Virus record (IMG/VR): IMGVR_UViG_3300020433_000038
Coordinates: 1 to 26,862 of that record
Strand: one strand, 5' to 3'
Source of the DNA: a virus
DNA: 26,862 nucleotides
Each line of letters begins with the position of its first letter. Positions within the stretch are counted from its first letter, which is position 1. The notes under the pieces are model-generated. The model was not told where the DNA came from. It ran no database searches and saw only the letters and a program-made list of their open reading frames with translations. The position numbers were made by a program, and so were the translations under genes. Shown in pieces: positions 4,357 through 9,976 of the stretch.

Positions 4357-4610
4357 TACTTATCTGCTGTAAATTTACGGTTCTTCATGTAACCCCACTT
4401 GCCTTTGTGTAATGCTCTTACACCTTTGGGGTTCCTGATAGCATTCTTCTGTTTCTCTTTGGCATCAGCATCCTTAGCCATAAATTCCTTGTACCTTTTC
4501 TTACCGTACTTGGATTTATACTTGGTTTCTTTTGCCTTTTCTTTTTCTATTGCGTAGGATTTAAGCCTATCTGCAGCAGCATCGTTATCCCACTCTAGGA
4601 GCGATGTCAT
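4356..4610 (-). CDS. Small lysine-rich protein (84 aa)
   Basis: Function unknown. Highly charged and basic: KEKAKETKYKSKYGKKRYKE near residues 23-42 and HKGKWGYMKNRKF near the end. Probably helical or disordered and able to bind nucleic acid or acidic proteins by charge alone. The ATGA overlap with the preceding gene and TAATG junction with the next show a coupled operon with 4607-5110 and 5110-6603. Confidence 0.65.
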   Translation of the reverse strand: MTSLLEWDNDAAADRLKSYAIEKEKAKETKYKSKYGKKRYKEFMAKDADAKEKQKNAIRNPKGVRALHKGKWGYMKNRKFTADK

Positions 4611-5110
4611 CTTCTTGCCTCTTTCTTTTTCTTATCATACTCAGCAGTTGCTTGGAGCATCTTCTTCTTAAGATTCTCCTTTGCTTTGCTAGTCTTACTG
4701 TGAGCAGTAGCACCTACAGATGCAGGTAGAGCAGCACCTGTTACTGCAACCTCTTCGATTGGTTCGATGCTTTCGATATCAACTCTAGCATCATATCCAT
4801 CAGGGACACGAGACTTTGCTAGTGCGAGTGCTTCTTTCTGTAACTTATCTCTTCTCTTGATGACTGAAGAGCGTACCTTTCTTCTATACTTAAGATACTT
4901 GTCATCTTTTTGATTGTGTTTACCGTCGTTGTTGATGTCAGAATCTTCTTTACCGACGGGATCTAATTTTTCTTGCATAAGATCCTCCTTCTTAGGATTA
5001 ATAGTGATACCTTTTTTGACTTTGGTCCCGCCCTTCATAGCAGGATGTTGACTGTCCTTGTCACGACGATCATTCTTATTTAATAGTGTTTGTTGAGCTT
5101 TGGATGTCAT
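4607..5110 (-). CDS. Charged protein with EF-hand/dockerin-like Ca2+ loop
   Basis: Hypothetical 167-residue protein, rich in Lys and Asp. Residues 58-69 read DINNDGKHNQKD, matching the DxNxDGxxNxxD calcium-coordinating loop of EF-hand/dockerin motifs; the following helix is basic (KYLKYRRKVRSSVIKRR). A hydrophobic-acidic section around residues 108-135 precedes a Lys-rich coiled C-terminus. Marine T4-like phages often carry such loops in virion-associated proteins, but the role here is unknown. Start ATG 5110 overlaps the upstream stop (TAATG). Confidence 0.68.
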   Translation of the reverse strand: MTSKAQQTLLNKNDRRDKDSQHPAMKGGTKVKKGITINPKKEDLMQEKLDPVGKEDSDINNDGKHNQKDDKYLKYRRKVRSSVIKRRDKLQKEALALAKSRVPDGYDARVDIESIEPIEEVAVTGAALPASVGATAHSKTSKAKENLKKKMLQATAEYDKKKKEARR

Positions 5111-6603
5111 TACTGAACCCCCATTTCTTTACGCCAATCATAACTCTCTCCCATACGTCTTGCAACATTACGGGAACCACGAGAAACACTACGGGCAATC
5201 TTGCCAACGACTTTCTTGATACCAGCTTTTAAACCACCACCTGAGGAACCAGATGATGAACTACTAGAACTAGATGAACTAGAGGAACTAGAACCTCCAC
5301 TACGACCTGAACCTGAGACATAACTGTTACCAGTTACACTAGGTTTTCCGTCTGTACTAGAACTAGATGATGTAGAAACACTGGACTTCTTCTTAGTAGC
5401 AGATGCACGAGCATCTTTATATCCAGACTTAAAGTCTGATCCAGCTTTCTTAGCAGCACTACCCACCTTACTAGCAACGTTAACTGCTGTACCTGCAGCT
5501 TTACCTGCTTGATATGGTACTTTCTTTAACCCCTTCTTAACAGCTGAACCTGCACTCTTAAGTGCTGACTTCACTTTCTCTGCACGAGAAGGACCAGAGT
5601 TGTTGCTGCTAGGTTTCTTGTCTTGTAATGTCTTACGAGCAATGGCACCTGCATCTCTTGGTTTTTCTTTCTTTGGTGCTTGTACTGCAACATTAGGGAA
5701 TGCTGAATGCTTTGATGGTGCTTCTGTTAACAACTCTATGCCATCTATAGCTTCGAGTGCTTCGTTAAGTGAACCTTCATCCAACTCTTCTAATGCTTCT
5801 ACAAATAATGTTTCGAGTTCTTCGAAACTAATCTCATCGATGTATGCATCATCTAGGTCGATGTATCTTTCGATAAGATCATCGATAGTCTCTTCACCAA
5901 GCCTTTTCTTTTTCTGAGCAGAGTATAAACGAGCAGACTGTTGTAGTTTCTTCTTAGCCTTCTCTTTATCACCTGCTACTGCTGCCTTACCTCTTTCCAC
6001 TTCAGCCTTCTTGGATGCTTTTAGTGCGAGGTCAGCAGAGATTTCTGTGATTGTGTCTTCTTTCATATGATCGGCAGCCTTATACATTGGGGTGCCATCT
6101 TTCTTCTTCATACCTTTCTTATAATTCTGGTATGCTTTGGTGTTGCCTTTCTTATCAGCGTTAGTAACTGTCATAGCTTCTAACATAGATCTATGTAAGT
6201 CATCTATATCAACAGACTCCTTAGGACCTTGTACACCTATGTCTTCTGCATACTTAGCAGTCTTCTCTCCTTTCTTACCTACTACAATGTAACGACCATC
6301 AGATTTACGACCAGTGATAACCATTGATTGTCCACCAGGTGAGATAACTCTACCGATGTTACGATCATCAGGTGAGATACGCTTGTTCTTATCGATCAAT
6401 TCTTTCTCGATAGGAAATCCACCATACCCTTCGAAGGTATCTTGGAGAGGTGCCTCATCTATAATCTTGATGATCTTATCAACTGTTTCCTGCATACGTT
6501 TTGAGGGAGCTTGTGACTCTCTATCAACGTGCTTTAGGATTGTCATCTGTTCATCAAGGGTATACCCCATGAGTTCAGCAGATACTTTAATGTCAGTTGC
6601 CAT
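5110..6603 (-). CDS. Large disordered, Ser-rich virion/core-type protein
   Basis: 497 residues with no enzyme signature. The N-terminal 150 residues look folded, including GRVISPGGQSMVITGRKSDG. Lys-rich helical sequence follows, then a strongly acidic block around 235-290 (IDDLIERYIDLDDAYIDEIS). The C-terminal third is basic and disordered with a run of serines interrupted only by glycines, ending in an Arg-rich tail. Several (L/I)xE tripeptides (ITE, LNE, LTE) match the cleavage rule of the T4 prohead protease gp21. Low complexity, charge segregation and these sites suggest a prohead-core or internal virion protein; this is inference. A TAAATA late motif lies 25-32 bases upstream of the ATG at 6603. 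Confidence 0.7.
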   Translation of the reverse strand: MATDIKVSAELMGYTLDEQMTILKHVDRESQAPSKRMQETVDKIIKIIDEAPLQDTFEGYGGFPIEKELIDKNKRISPDDRNIGRVISPGGQSMVITGRKSDGRYIVVGKKGEKTAKYAEDIGVQGPKESVDIDDLHRSMLEAMTVTNADKKGNTKAYQNYKKGMKKKDGTPMYKAADHMKEDTITEISADLALKASKKAEVERGKAAVAGDKEKAKKKLQQSARLYSAQKKKRLGEETIDDLIERYIDLDDAYIDEISFEELETLFVEALEELDEGSLNEALEAIDGIELLTEAPSKHSAFPNVAVQAPKKEKPRDAGAIARKTLQDKKPSSNNSGPSRAEKVKSALKSAGSAVKKGLKKVPYQAGKAAGTAVNVASKVGSAAKKAGSDFKSGYKDARASATKKKSSVSTSSSSSTDGKPSVTGNSYVSGSGRSGGSSSSSSSSSSSSSSGSSGGGLKAGIKKVVGKIARSVSRGSRNVARRMGESYDWRKEMGVQ

Positions 6604-6626: not shown

Positions 6627-7724
6627 TTATTTAGGTGTTGCAACCTTTCTAAAGTCGGAAAACTTAACTCCGAACTTAGTTGTTGCTTGTCCAGGAGTCA
6701 TATCCTGTACTGCTTGACGATATTTATCTGTACCAACTTTCCAATCATTTCCTGATCCATCATCAGCAGAGAAGTTTGATTGATCCTTCCTGTTCTTACT
6801 AGCATCTGTAACTTCTGTTACATGATGCAGCCATGTGCGGAATTCATCACCATGCTCATCCTTAAGGATGACATAGTTACTACCACGATGAACAATAGTA
6901 CCACGAATACCAGTGTCATCATACTCTACTAATGTACCTACCTCAAAGATCTCTTCTTCGATGTAGTGTTCTCTCAATTCTTCTTGGTTAAGTTTAGGTG
7001 CAAACAACCATGACTCTGTTTTTGCTTTCTCTTGCTTGGCTTTTGCCTTCTTGAGTTTCTCAGGTGGTGTCATACCTGCTTTAACATCTGCCATCAATTT
7101 TAGAGAGTGTGCCTTACTAAAACCTTTAGGCATACCTAGATGGAAATTATCATGGTCATCACCTGACGCATGTTTCCTCTGATCTGATGCTGAAAGTCTT
7201 TCTACAGGGTCTTCGGAGTCTTTGTTTCTTGCTCCTCCAGACTTTATATTAATACTCTTAAAGTTATAGTGCTTACCGTTATACTTGTCAGTTAACTTCT
7301 GAAATTCTTTTACACGGTCATCACCTACTACCATAGTGACATGCTCATGCCCCTCATCATTGAGGTCACGAAGGATATCAAATATATTTCTATGCTGTTC
7401 AGAATTTTGGATCTTATCCTTATGATTCTTAAACATCTTACGCATGTGATCAACCTTTTGATCAGCACTTAGAGGGTTCTTCTTATGATCCTGTGTCCTA
7501 CTAGGATAGATCCTGTAGTTACCAGAGTCACCACCTGCTTTCTGCACAGCATCAAGCATCTTACCATGACCTGCGTGTGGTGGATTAAATCTACCGAAGG
7601 TTATAGCAACGTGTTTGTCTGCAGCCATCCTATCCGCTTTACCATTACCTGCAGGTTTGGCTTTCGGATTGGTTTTCTTGGTAGCATCGTATGCTTCAGT
7701 TATAAAGACGTGAAATGTTAACAT
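6627..7724 (-). CDS. HxGH nucleotidylyltransferase with KOW/SH3-like C-terminus and capsid-targeting-like N-terminus
   Basis: Probable enzyme that transfers NMP from an NTP (cytidylyl/adenylyl type); substrate unknown. Of 365 residues, 39-53 read VAITFGRFNPPHAGH, containing the HxGH motif (H50-A-G-H53). LSASDQRKHA (177-186) resembles the second conserved (I/L)S(x)TxxR motif. The domain ends near residue 215. A C-terminal segment from about 247 (VGTLVEYDDTGIRGTIVHRG) looks like a KOW/SH3-type beta fold. The N-terminus MLTFHVFITEAYD resembles T4 capsid-targeting sequences, and ITE fits the gp21 cleavage rule. The ATG follows the upstream stop directly (TAAATG) with GGGG as ribosome site, coupling it to the ligase-like gene. 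Confidence 0.82.
   Translation of the reverse strand: MLTFHVFITEAYDATKKTNPKAKPAGNGKADRMAADKHVAITFGRFNPPHAGHGKMLDAVQKAGGDSGNYRIYPSRTQDHKKNPLSADQKVDHMRKMFKNHKDKIQNSEQHRNIFDILRDLNDEGHEHVTMVVGDDRVKEFQKLTDKYNGKHYNFKSINIKSGGARNKDSEDPVERLSASDQRKHASGDDHDNFHLGMPKGFSKAHSLKLMADVKAGMTPPEKLKKAKAKQEKAKTESWLFAPKLNQEELREHYIEEEIFEVGTLVEYDDTGIRGTIVHRGSNYVILKDEHGDEFRTWLHHVTEVTDASKNRKDQSNFSADDGSGNDWKVGTDKYRQAVQDMTPGQATTKFGVKFSDFRKVATPK
6628..6635 (-). promoter_or_regulatory. Late-promoter-like motif (CCTAAATA)
   Basis: Minus-strand CCTAAATA covers the last sense codons and stop of the nucleotidylyltransferase gene, 25-32 bases before the ATG of the 497-residue gene. It keeps the TAAATA core of T4 late promoters. 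Confidence 0.4.
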
Positions 7725-8903
7725 TTATCCCCAATTTTTTGCAACGGTGAAGTTAGCACGACTGAACTCTAATCTATCGACCAGTTTCATAGCAGTACCG
7801 TTTTTAATAGCAACGAATCCCTCAGGACTTGTTACTCGGTACCCATCTTCATCCTCTATAAACGTACCAATGCCTTTAACCTTTTGTAGTCTGCCGATGA
7901 TGATGTTTTTAGCAGTCATCAATGCAGTAAAGGCATTCATAGCACTATGTATGGCAGTTTTGTTACTATTTAGGTATGAAATAGTTTGTCGTTTCTTTTC
8001 TTGCCATTGTTTCTTTGCTTTCTCGGTCTTTTTCTTCGCTATTTCCATGTCAAAGCGTCCTGACACAAAGTCAACAAACCCCCTAAGCATAACAGCAGAG
8101 GATGATGGAACGTTACCACTACGAACTACTTGGTTAAAGTACATCTTAAACATTGCAGTGTATTCGAATGGTTTCTTACCACCTAAGAGGTCAAGAAAGT
8201 TTCTACCCTTAGTCATGCTAGTCTTAGCAGAATTTATATTCTTATTAACTGCTGCTTTCTCCATAGCAGTTAGAGTAACCTCCTTACCTGTAGTCTGGAA
8301 GTCTGAAGATAATACTGCTACGTCAGGTACACCTTGTAGTCCTGCTACATTTGCACCAAAGGATGCTGACATCTCTCCCATAGTTGCTCCTGCATATGTT
8401 GTATGAAATACTATACCTAACTTAGATGCAGCAACCTTATTACCTAGTTCACTACCTTCTTGTGCAAAGTATGTAATAGTATTAGGTCTAAATTTATATC
8501 CATTAATACCACCCATCTTGGCTAGACCAGGTGTGGATGTGTATAGTAGATCACCTTGTAGTACACCTTGGATAGGTAGTTTCTTAAGTTGCTCTAGACA
8601 TGTCTTTAGGATGCCATTAATAGGACCAGGATAGTGATAGTCAACCTCAGCATCTGATGATGCTATCTTAGGTATCTTATTAAATGCAGACTTAGTTCCT
8701 ACAAAGAATAATCCTGACTCTGGATCAGTACCACATACAATAGCAGGTGCACCGTCCCATTTAGTTGTGATCCTAGTACCTGTAACCTGTGTCCCTAGCA
8801 TGTCACGAAGGGACTCTAAAAATTTTATTGCATTAAGACCACCTGCATACCCATTATTAATAAGTTCATCTTCCAGATGTTCTAAGTGTGTGTTCTTTGC
8901 CAT
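7725..8903 (-). CDS. Conserved phage protein with ligase/nucleotidyltransferase-like motifs
   Basis: 392 residues, conserved-looking but with no certain function. Residues 45-55 (ITTKWDGAPAI) contain K48-W-D-G51, the motif I pattern KxDG of DNA/RNA ligases and capping enzymes, where the lysine takes the nucleotide. GVLQGDLLY (113-121) is in the right place for motif III, GIVFHTTY (163-170) for motif IIIa, EGFVAIKNG (361-369) for motif IV (EGxV) and AMKLVDR (371-377) for motif V. The order and spacing suit a covalent nucleotidyltransferase, although a long Lys-rich helical insert (about 285-310) separates IIIa from IV. It starts by TAATG overlap with the upstream gene and ends one base before the nucleotidylyltransferase ATG. 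The ligase-fold reading is inference. Confidence 0.78.
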   Translation of the reverse strand: MAKNTHLEHLEDELINNGYAGGLNAIKFLESLRDMLGTQVTGTRITTKWDGAPAIVCGTDPESGLFFVGTKSAFNKIPKIASSDAEVDYHYPGPINGILKTCLEQLKKLPIQGVLQGDLLYTSTPGLAKMGGINGYKFRPNTITYFAQEGSELGNKVAASKLGIVFHTTYAGATMGEMSASFGANVAGLQGVPDVAVLSSDFQTTGKEVTLTAMEKAAVNKNINSAKTSMTKGRNFLDLLGGKKPFEYTAMFKMYFNQVVRSGNVPSSSAVMLRGFVDFVSGRFDMEIAKKKTEKAKKQWQEKKRQTISYLNSNKTAIHSAMNAFTALMTAKNIIIGRLQKVKGIGTFIEDEDGYRVTSPEGFVAIKNGTAMKLVDRLEFSRANFTVAKNWG

Positions 8904-9976
8904 TATACTTCTTGATTTCCTCCACGGTTTCTAATAAATGCCCAAGGATATATCCCAAGACGAGCACCATCATATCGTTGACCATCTTCTATGGTAGTAC
9001 CATCTTCATCTACAACATCCGCAGTATCCCATCCACGTCCTGCTCTATATGTAGCACAGAGATATGGTGCGTAGTCTGGGTGTTCCATAAGTGCTTGAGG
9101 GTTAGTCCAGTATGACATGTGACTAGAAAAGGTTAGAGTGTAACATATTTCTTCCCCTTTCCATGTGAGTTCTGGTTCACCTTGTCCAATGATGTGTACA
9201 TTGTCGTCACCAAACGTACCACTATTATAGTCGGGACCAAAGCAGGATTGGGCTGCCAGTGTGACATCTTGTACTTTGGCCCATCGTGGTCCAATAAGTC
9301 TTACACCATTATGATGCTCTGGTTTAGACAACTCTCTCATAAATCTTTGCACCTCTGTGTGATCATAAATCAACCTTCTATTTGCCCTACTACCAGATGT
9401 AGGAGAGACACCACCATACTGCTGATAGTCACTAGCAGATCCTGTCTTCTTATGTGATATGAATAGAACTGGCTTACCATCAGGATCAACAATATTAAAG
9501 TCGGACTTAGCATCCCTACCATTGATACGAGTTGATACCTCCTCCACATCATAACAATTAGGAAACTTATGTCCGTTGTTCAGACATATAGTTATAGGAC
9601 CAGTTGCTCTAACAAATCTCTGTAATAAATTACCAAGTTGTTCCATTGCCAACCTCTGTGAACTCAGAACGTCAGCACCTGCCTGTGGTTTCCTAATCCT
9701 ATTGATAGGAATATACCCAACCTTTCCATCTGCTCTACACTTAAGAACTTCTAATCTACCTACCATATCTAAACGATTTTCCAGTATCCTTAACGTTGTA
9801 TCGGAAGGTAATGGATTCCAAGTATCTGTCTTGTTCTCTTTAAAGAACCTAGACTCGTGGAAAGTAGTTTGTCTATCTATTTTTAATTCTATTTCTGCCC
9901 ACGCAGGATTGTTCTGGATATACTTTTGGTATCCTGTCATCTGCTTGTCAGAAGTTTTAGACTTAAGAGTAGCCAC
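8903..9976 (-). CDS. Conserved phage protein, possible PD-(D/E)XK-like nuclease
   Basis: 357 residues when read from a GTG at 9976; no certain family. Residues 158-180 contain SDFNIVD, a turn (PDGKP), then VLFISHKKTG: an acidic residue on one strand and an SHKK on the next, like the D...(D/E)xK core of restriction-type nucleases with Ser replacing the acidic residue. Aromatic-rich C-terminus. The GTG has no ribosome site and lies next to a terminator T-run; the in-frame ATG 12 codons on (MTGYQKYIQ) is an alternative start, also without a clear site. Its stop overlaps the start of the ligase-like gene (TAATG). Nuclease activity is only a hypothesis. Confidence 0.75.
   Translation of the reverse strand: MATLKSKTSDKQMTGYQKYIQNNPAWAEIELKIDRQTTFHESRFFKENKTDTWNPLPSDTTLRILENRLDMVGRLEVLKCRADGKVGYIPINRIRKPQAGADVLSSQRLAMEQLGNLLQRFVRATGPITICLNNGHKFPNCYDVEEVSTRINGRDAKSDFNIVDPDGKPVLFISHKKTGSASDYQQYGGVSPTSGSRANRRLIYDHTEVQRFMRELSKPEHHNGVRLIGPRWAKVQDVTLAAQSCFGPDYNSGTFGDDNVHIIGQGEPELTWKGEEICYTLTFSSHMSYWTNPQALMEHPDYAPYLCATYRAGRGWDTADVVDEDGTTIEDGQRYDGARLGIYPWAFIRNRGGNQEV

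Follow-up and report, generated by a model that had tools for sequence, protein, structure and literature searches.

Does a marine T4-like phage carry a nucleotidylyltransferase in its head? A candidate capsid-cargo cassette with a ligase-like partner and a variable, usually nuclease-like slot

What do an endonuclease-like gene, a ligase-like gene, and a nucleotidylyltransferase gene do side by side in a marine T4-like phage? The question is raised by IMG/VR virus record IMGVR_UViG_3300020433_000038, whose 26,862 bases were analysed in full (the window) and whose nearest named relative is cyanophage P-RSM6. The three genes, here called NUC, DUF6267, and CYT, all lie on the minus strand and are read in that order from 9976 to 6627; NUC ends in a stop codon that overlaps the ATG of DUF6267 at 8903 (TAATG), and the ATG of CYT at 7724 comes immediately after the DUF6267 stop (7727-7725; TAAATG). 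The three open reading frames (ORFs) and both junctions are as the initial annotation described them. CYT is 97% and DUF6267 87% identical to the P-RSM6 proteins. The answer we favour, to which we give somewhat better than an even chance, is that in marine T4-like phages these genes form a cassette of capsid cargo—a variable nuclease arm joined to a conserved pair for end joining or nucleoside monophosphate (NMP) transfer. Much of the case lies in the N-terminus of CYT, whose likeness to a capsid targeting sequence the initial annotation overlooked.

8903-9976, minus strand: NUC, 357 residues, GTG start; an SH3-like domain (residues 22-99) and a predicted HhaI/HinP1I-like endonuclease domain (about 101-346) with D159...S174-H175-K176
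7725-8903, minus strand: DUF6267 protein, 392 residues; ligase-like core with K48WDG, QGD116-118, E361GFV, and K373LV, and a helical insertion at about 213-340
6627-7724, minus strand: CYT, 365 residues, orthologue of T4-GC190; predicted HIGH-superfamily nucleotidylyltransferase with H50xGH53 and S178AS180..R183
7695-7724, minus strand: capsid-targeting-like N-terminus of CYT, residues 1-10, ending F-I-T-E, with predicted prohead protease cleavage at E10|A11

CYT of the window begins MLTFHVFITEA, while T4 ipII and ipIII, as read from the T4 record, both begin MKTYQEFIAEA; the CYT tag shares its spacing, residue types, and E|A context with T4 IPI, IPII, IPIII, and Alt. According to the cited passages of PMC9026906, the first ten residues of T4 IPIII are enough for targeting—residues 4 and 7 serving targeting and residues 8 and 10 processing—and the protease gp21 cuts after L/I-x-E. 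We compared 71 CYT N-termini. All 71 have F or Y at P7, F at P4, I or L at P3, and E at P1, and 70 have A at P1', with P6, P5, and P2 variable; the conserved P7, P4, P3, and P1 are the counterparts of T4 residues 4, 7, 8, and 10. Pairwise identity is 0.67 over the eight tag residues, against 0.21 over the next sixteen.

The loci behind these counts are the 80 best-ranked among 346 relatives of the window DUF6267, the 80 best-ranked among at least 600 relatives of the DUF6267 of phage Melnitz-3, six from a query with S-SSM2, and named phage records. Tags were counted with a strict pattern, ^M.{1,8}[FY]..[FYH][ILM].E, which in clade counts could start at any in-frame ATG within the first 60 codons. 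It matches 64/64 window-like and 6/6 S-SSM2-like distinct CYTs with complete N-termini; these 70, together with locus L003, make up the 71, none having been lost to the pattern. The pattern was composed after several CYT N-termini had been inspected and so was not blind, for which reason counts in other ORFs serve as its control. One of 33 window ORFs and one of 170 P-RSM6 ORFs match, CYT both times; in T4 (96 kb) the matches are 2 of 130 ORFs, ipII and ipIII, and the pattern is not sensitive, since T4 ipI and Alt were missed. Four of 178 Melnitz-3 ORFs match, two of them being DUF6267 and the protein in the slot upstream of it.

Evidence from virions points the same way. A putative citidylyltransferase, T4-GC190, which belongs to the cyanophage core, was found in purified S-SM1 virions, as reported in the cited part of Sullivan 2010 (PMC3037559). 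The S-SM1 CYT is annotated T4-GC190, adjoins DUF6267 (annotated T4-GC71), and starts MKKFSAFLNEA. P-RSM6 encodes a gp21-like protein, and its gp23 shows LNE|A at residue 52, at the end of the N-terminal region. Capsid targeting of CYT is well supported and in our judgement very probable; most likely CYT would be packaged and processed in the manner of IPIII, the cleavage itself being predicted.

As to what CYT would do, its motifs and a Pfam CTP_transf_like match above the curated cut-off (E 1.7e-8, with the HxGH that the initial annotation had pointed out, H50-A-G-H53, inside the match) place it in the HIGH superfamily of nucleotidylyltransferases. GRFNPPxxGH and SAS..R are kept in 24/24 CYT sequences, the first H of HxGH being H or T; G52, H53, S178-A-S180, and R183 are invariant. 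CYT also falls in a PHROG cytidyltransferase family, matches proteins in 529 of 50,697 phage records, and, among the 40 of these 529 that were listed, most annotated homologues are named cytidyltransferase or similar. A profile search of the PDB gave UPF0348 protein MJ0951 as its best match (E 0.039, generic motifs only), and T4 nrdC.11, an annotated nucleotidyltransferase, matches neither CYT nor DUF6267. The CYT of Melnitz-3 (L004:7592-9544) is longer, at 650 residues, with a DUF5824 match after the nucleotidyltransferase domain.

The protein encoded just before CYT matches Pfam DUF6267 (E 6.7e-131), as do proteins in 467/50,697 phage records, and no paper naming the family was found in the open-access PMC literature. 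Here the ligase-type motifs recognized by the initial annotation are borne out by conservation: K48-W-D-G, Q116-G-D118, H167-T, E361-G, V364, K373, and V375 are all invariant in 64/64 DUF6267 sequences, including the E361-G-x-V and K373-x-V elements. For this gene and for the trio as a whole, the conservation of the motifs is far above chance. The AlphaFold model (predicted local distance difference test, pLDDT, 80.5; predicted template modelling score, pTM, 0.71) was compared by VIA-align with the chains that Foldseek ranked highest. The first 18 rows are RNA ligases and later rows mostly DNA and RNA ligases, with Z scores of 7.6 for Naegleria RNA ligase, 6.8 for T4 Rnl2, 6.7 for REL1, and 6.3 for T4 Rnl1. 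Even the best match (181 aligned residues, root-mean-square deviation, rmsd, 4.0) does not exceed Z 7.6, and a plain Foldseek search with the model had a best E of 0.36; because that search was not significant and Z below 8 can be unspecific, the ligase fold is supportive rather than proven. In hhalign against T4 ligases, motifs IV-V alone align with T4 Rnl1 (EGFVAIKNGTAMKL / EGYVAVMKDGSHFKI), weakly at E 0.093; phmmer against the T4 ligases gave no match, and neither the single sequence nor the profile had a meaningful match among PDB sequences. Invariant motifs and a predicted RNA-ligase-like fold with middling scores thus support, without proving, a ligase-like covalent nucleotidyltransferase.

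Order, in turn, ties the two genes together. In the first synteny set (phage records, contigs of window DUF6267 relatives, and the window), CYT follows DUF6267 in 84/84 loci with at least 200 nt after DUF6267, its start lying at the DUF6267 end or 0-14 nt before it. The exceptions to this spacing are L004, where CYT comes 385 nt after DUF6267, and S-PM2 record LN828717 (L002), where DUF6267 and CYT domains form a single 1776-nt ORF; in the other S-PM2 record, NC_006820 (L204), a frame change within DUF6267 breaks this region in two. PHROG 455 spans both domains. Where Melnitz-like contigs extend for 1500 nt or more downstream, CYT lies within 1.2 kb of DUF6267 in 51/54. In the Stenotrophomonas phage DLP_6, NUC, DUF6267, and CYT keep this order, a single ORF separating DUF6267 from CYT; in HTVC008M, DUF6267 and CYT are separated by two ORFs. 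One of these, gp129 (L206:7742-8404), is a P-loop kinase-like protein of the Zeta_toxin/AAA_33 type that begins MIPFILKEG; its match to a polynucleotide kinase PHROG is weaker than that to Zeta_toxin/AAA_33. We consider it probable that DUF6267 is the partner of CYT.

In the Melnitz-like sister clade the tag has been found on other members of the locus. DUF6267 often starts there like M-I-x-F-S-x-F-L-x-E-D, and 37/68 carry the strict tag. An extended pattern picks out just 2 of the 127 Melnitz-3 ORFs that reach 120 residues, exactly the slot protein (MQGFKTFLSEA) and the adjacent DUF6267; elsewhere it finds 3 of 138 ORFs in HTVC008M, one of them DUF6267, and 3 of 135 in P-RSM6, one of them CYT. 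In several pairs from different families, Melnitz-like slot proteins share no more than about their first 30 residues (L149/L124, L149/L126, and L124/L126, E 2e-13 to 5e-13), the shared tag ending like V-Q-S-F-L-S-E; in some other pairs the shared stretch extends to 70-110 residues.

The slot was surveyed as the ORF immediately 5' of DUF6267 in 140 loci, the window among them, after setting aside 31 loci that were cut or had less than 1300 nt upstream, two without an ORF, and, beforehand, L002 and L175. Families were clustered on matches of at least 100 residues; looser clustering had joined families partly via the N-terminal tag, and the stricter rules were adopted. In 113/140 loci the slot holds one of 13 families with a D...(S/E)xK-type core, read from the consensus: F0 (30 loci), F1, which is NUC (18), F2 (18), F3 (12), F6 (8), F7 (8), F8 (5), F9 (4), F10 (4), F11 (3), and F14, F16, and F17 (one each). 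NUC thus fills 18 loci and twelve other families, nuclease-like by motif, fill 95. The F2 core has its D about 40 residues ahead of SLK, and distant kinship joins F3 with F16 and F2 with F9. The remaining 27 loci comprise gp41 helicase, the slot being empty (10), a 111-residue ORF (9), small ORFs of the P-RSM6 type (5), and three single cases: an ADP-ribosyltransferase (ART)-like protein, a virion-like protein, and an ORF that is probably spurious. The ART-like protein (L154:3558-4004; Pfam ART-PolyVal, E 0.0011, below cut-off) starts (V/M)KTLKQLYEA and recalls T4 Alt as capsid cargo. A single common slot family was rejected: the NUC profile, run against 65 upstream ORFs, finds the known homologue only, the rest having E above 0.4. 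None of the other slot representatives scanned reached the cut-off of any Pfam family, Pfam gave nothing convincing for a set of ten slot representatives, and PDB profile searches with the slot proteins A4 and A5 gave chance-level matches only. The gene order that the initial annotation proposed to check across related phages divides: DUF6267 followed by CYT is kept, while NUC itself is not constant. That the slot gene is an effector changing type between phages seems to us fairly likely.

In the window, the effector would be NUC. The D...SHKK core for which it had been called nuclease-like holds up, since D159...S174-H175-K176 is invariant in all 29 aligned sequences, the window included, as are Q185, Q186, and G188-G189. 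The acidic residue that a literal PD-(D/E)XK motif has before the lysine is absent from NUC, where an invariant S (29/29) begins S174-H-K176. The PADLOC profile REase_II matches residues 155-348 (E 3.5e-10), while no Pfam family matches above cut-off. An AlphaFold model built from 29 sequences (mean pLDDT 86.6, pTM 0.68) has two parts: residues 22-99 resemble SH3-like domains, and residues 101-346 give as best non-SH3 rows the HhaI endonuclease 6uke (Z 7.6, 153 aligned, rmsd 3.8) and HinP1I 1ynm (Z 6.2, 167 aligned, rmsd 4.3). Plain Foldseek with this model returned nothing with E below 0.001. The profile supports a restriction-type endonuclease, and the predicted fold suggests one like HhaI/HinP1I. 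Homologues occur in only 20/50,697 phage records, one of them, in an S-CAM7 record, annotated as a type-2 restriction enzyme.

A GCGC specificity of NUC with self-protection was considered and dropped. GCGC, CCGG, and CGCG have zero copies in the window and in P-RSM6 (192 kb, pieces L212-L215), where 63, 77, and 41 are expected, and CCGG is likewise missing from another 52 related loci, with none present where 227 are expected; the missing sites look like strong restriction avoidance. The depletion of GCGC does not track the presence of NUC, because P-RSM6 is GCGC-free without NUC and S-CAM7-like carriers of NUC have normal GCGC counts (67 vs 66.6 expected). Melnitz-3 has an annotated HhaI-type methyltransferase (L216:4010-5227) about 7 kb before its slot gene.

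The surroundings of the trio are mixed. The initial annotation had set it among virion genes and apart from replication genes, which proved wrong: upstream in transcription order are gp43 polymerase, UvsX, a 2-oxoglutarate (2OG) oxygenase, gp41 helicase, and MazG, and downstream of CYT come two proteins listed below, head-type proteins, and primase.

5110-6603, minus strand: 497-residue protein downstream of CYT, whose homologues come after CYT in many related loci
4607-5110, minus strand: 167-residue protein, next after the 497-residue protein, in the same orientation as the trio

The 497-residue protein is rich in Lys and Ser and, like prohead core proteins, has several L/I-x-E-A sequences. 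CTAAATA, a late-promoter-like motif, stands about 25 nt ahead of its gene; in the window as a whole the motif is not significant (7 matches vs 6.0 by chance).

Taken together, these data suggest the following course. CYT would enter the prohead core by means of a capsid targeting sequence at its N-terminus, of the kind known from T4 IPII and IPIII, be trimmed after ...F-I-T-E by a gp21-type prohead protease, and leave the head with the DNA at infection. DUF6267 would work with CYT, entering the head by its own tag in the Melnitz-like clade or through association with CYT in the window clade, and the upstream gene would supply an exchangeable effector—usually nuclease-like, and here a HhaI/HinP1I-like endonuclease. 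On entry the nuclease arm might attack host or rival nucleic acid while DUF6267 and CYT seal or activate ends; the set could act on RNA, tRNA, or nicked DNA ends. Delivery at infection and these roles in attack and repair we put at even chances. For the window phage we infer the enzyme activities, their substrates, the cooperation of the parts, and the packaging of NUC and DUF6267. The earlier idea of a cut, activate, and join system is in part supported, in that its three superfamily calls hold with unequal strength; this particular nuclease is not conserved in position. A bolder version describes a polymorphic, head-packaged weapon locus, in which many nuclease families without kinship (once an ART-like protein) are swapped behind a capsid-targeting N-terminus and delivered with DUF6267 and CYT that protect or repair phage nucleic acids; this we find plausible, at rather less than even chances.

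Several observations weigh against a packaged cassette. In the window clade the strict tag is absent from NUC (0/15) and DUF6267 (0/57), as it is from S-SSM2-like DUF6267 (0/5); in the Melnitz-like clade no CYT carries it (0/59, with a variant MKKFSEIxEA), and the extended tag occurs in only 15 of 37 complete slot proteins and misses 22, in a count that leaves out the gp41 group, sequences cut at a contig start, L168, other clades, and HTVC008M. HTVC008M has no strict match in 170 ORFs though DUF6267 and CYT are present, and the CYTs of S-CAM9 and S-8S56, outside the 71, start differently. T4-GC190 was not detected in an earlier S-PM2 virion study, as cited by Sullivan in the cited part of PMC3037559. 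Three Melnitz-like loci (L158, L161, L168) have no CYT after DUF6267, and some jumbo cyanophages hold the trio genes apart: the S-CAM7 matches to the trio fall around 46, 139, and 147 kb, and the DUF6267 and CYT matches in ACG-2014f record KJ019101 lie about 95 kb apart. Within the slot, profile or fold support exists for F1 alone, the other twelve of the 13 families resting on the motif; the largest, F0, matches Pfam InPase below threshold (E 7.9e-5), and P-RSM6, the closest named relative, is without NUC.

Could the trio instead be a nucleic-acid repair cluster of the T4 Rnl1/Pnkp type, expressed in the cell after infection, with the CYT tag incidental or used in head assembly only? The replication block directly upstream, the alignment of motifs IV-V with T4 Rnl1 (E 0.093), and the kinase-like protein between DUF6267 and CYT in HTVC008M speak for it; a tag kept at exactly the positions critical in T4, an orthologue in virions, and a variable slot speak against it, and we regard it as unlikely. 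Tag and virion detection, with head-type genes downstream, would suit head-core structural proteins of enzyme ancestry, where the tag brings CYT into the prohead scaffold and activity is dispensable. Vestigial enzymes are unlikely because the catalytic motifs are invariant in DUF6267 (64/64) and largely so in CYT (24/24), and we judge this account improbable. An equally low probability goes to CYT as a metabolic enzyme that activates nicotinamide mononucleotide (NMN), phosphosugars, or lipids, the trio being independent neighbours: HIGH-fold enzymes use many small-molecule substrates, the cited part of PMC7824862 reads jumbo-cyanophage HIGH nucleotidyltransferases as NMP-sugar enzymes, the homologues' cytidyltransferase names fit, and jumbo cyanophages can separate the genes, whereas the S-PM2 fusion and the adjacency in nearly all loci read tell against independence. 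Least probable of all, in our estimate, are slot nucleases of superinfection-exclusion or homing type, made in the cell and unrelated to the DUF6267-CYT pair. The untagged window-type NUC, its distance from DUF6267 in S-CAM7, and a NUC homologue in phiM12 with no DUF6267 annotated within 5 kb would agree with this, as against N-terminal tags shared across families by some Melnitz-like slot proteins and a nuclease-like slot protein directly upstream of DUF6267 in 113 of the 140 loci.

How does a packaged cassette compare with known systems? As the cited part of PMC3012670 describes them, the internal proteins of T-even phages counter restriction and, diverse as they are, have a conserved capsid targeting sequence in common; the locus shares their logic of variable cargo on a conserved tag (PMC3012670 and PMC9026906, parts cited). 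The T4 head cargo differs in kind—a restriction inhibitor and an ADP-ribosyltransferase there, a nucleotidylyltransferase here and, in the sister clade, DUF6267 and nuclease-like proteins, from one cassette. ATP-dependent RNA ligases (T4 Rnl1, Rnl2, Naegleria) have KxDG, EGxV, and K in the same order as DUF6267 and are its best structural neighbours; DUF6267 differs in a helical insertion of about 130 residues before motif IV, little sequence after motif V, weak fold scores, and a QGD that we take to be motif-III-like, with D where RNA ligases have E. Compared with HhaI and HinP1I, to which it is likened by its predicted fold, its REase_II match, and its D...SxK core (D...QxK in HinP1I), NUC has an N-terminal SH3-like domain and S for the acidic residue; no cognate methyltransferase is shown for it and GCGC specificity is unsupported. 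Phage polyvalent proteins, in the cited part of PMC5512222, share the concept of injected multi-effectors with exchangeable domains, and one slot protein is ART-PolyVal-like; the parts here are separate polypeptides in a T4-like locus, not one giant protein.

Capsid-targeted internal proteins, HIGH nucleotidyltransferases, RNA ligases, and HhaI-like nucleases were known already, and the virion presence of T4-GC190 is published. What is new is that the start of CYT can be linked to capsid targeting in T4, that DUF6267 can be read as ligase-like, and that the slot varies; none of this is described among the open-access PMC matches listed. The one open-access review found to touch on both capsid targeting and cyanophages names the latter in a reference title only.

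DUF6267 and CYT occur widely among marine T4-like phages, and no role for DUF6267 was found in the open-access PMC literature. If the two are head cargo that enters the host along with the DNA, the first minutes of cyanophage and pelagiphage infection would involve pre-made enzymes, and the variable nuclease slot would record an arms race with hosts and rival phages. Should the locus prove to be a head-packaged weapon, it would parallel, on the scale of the oceans, the arms race fought with T-even internal proteins, its cargo being enzymes.

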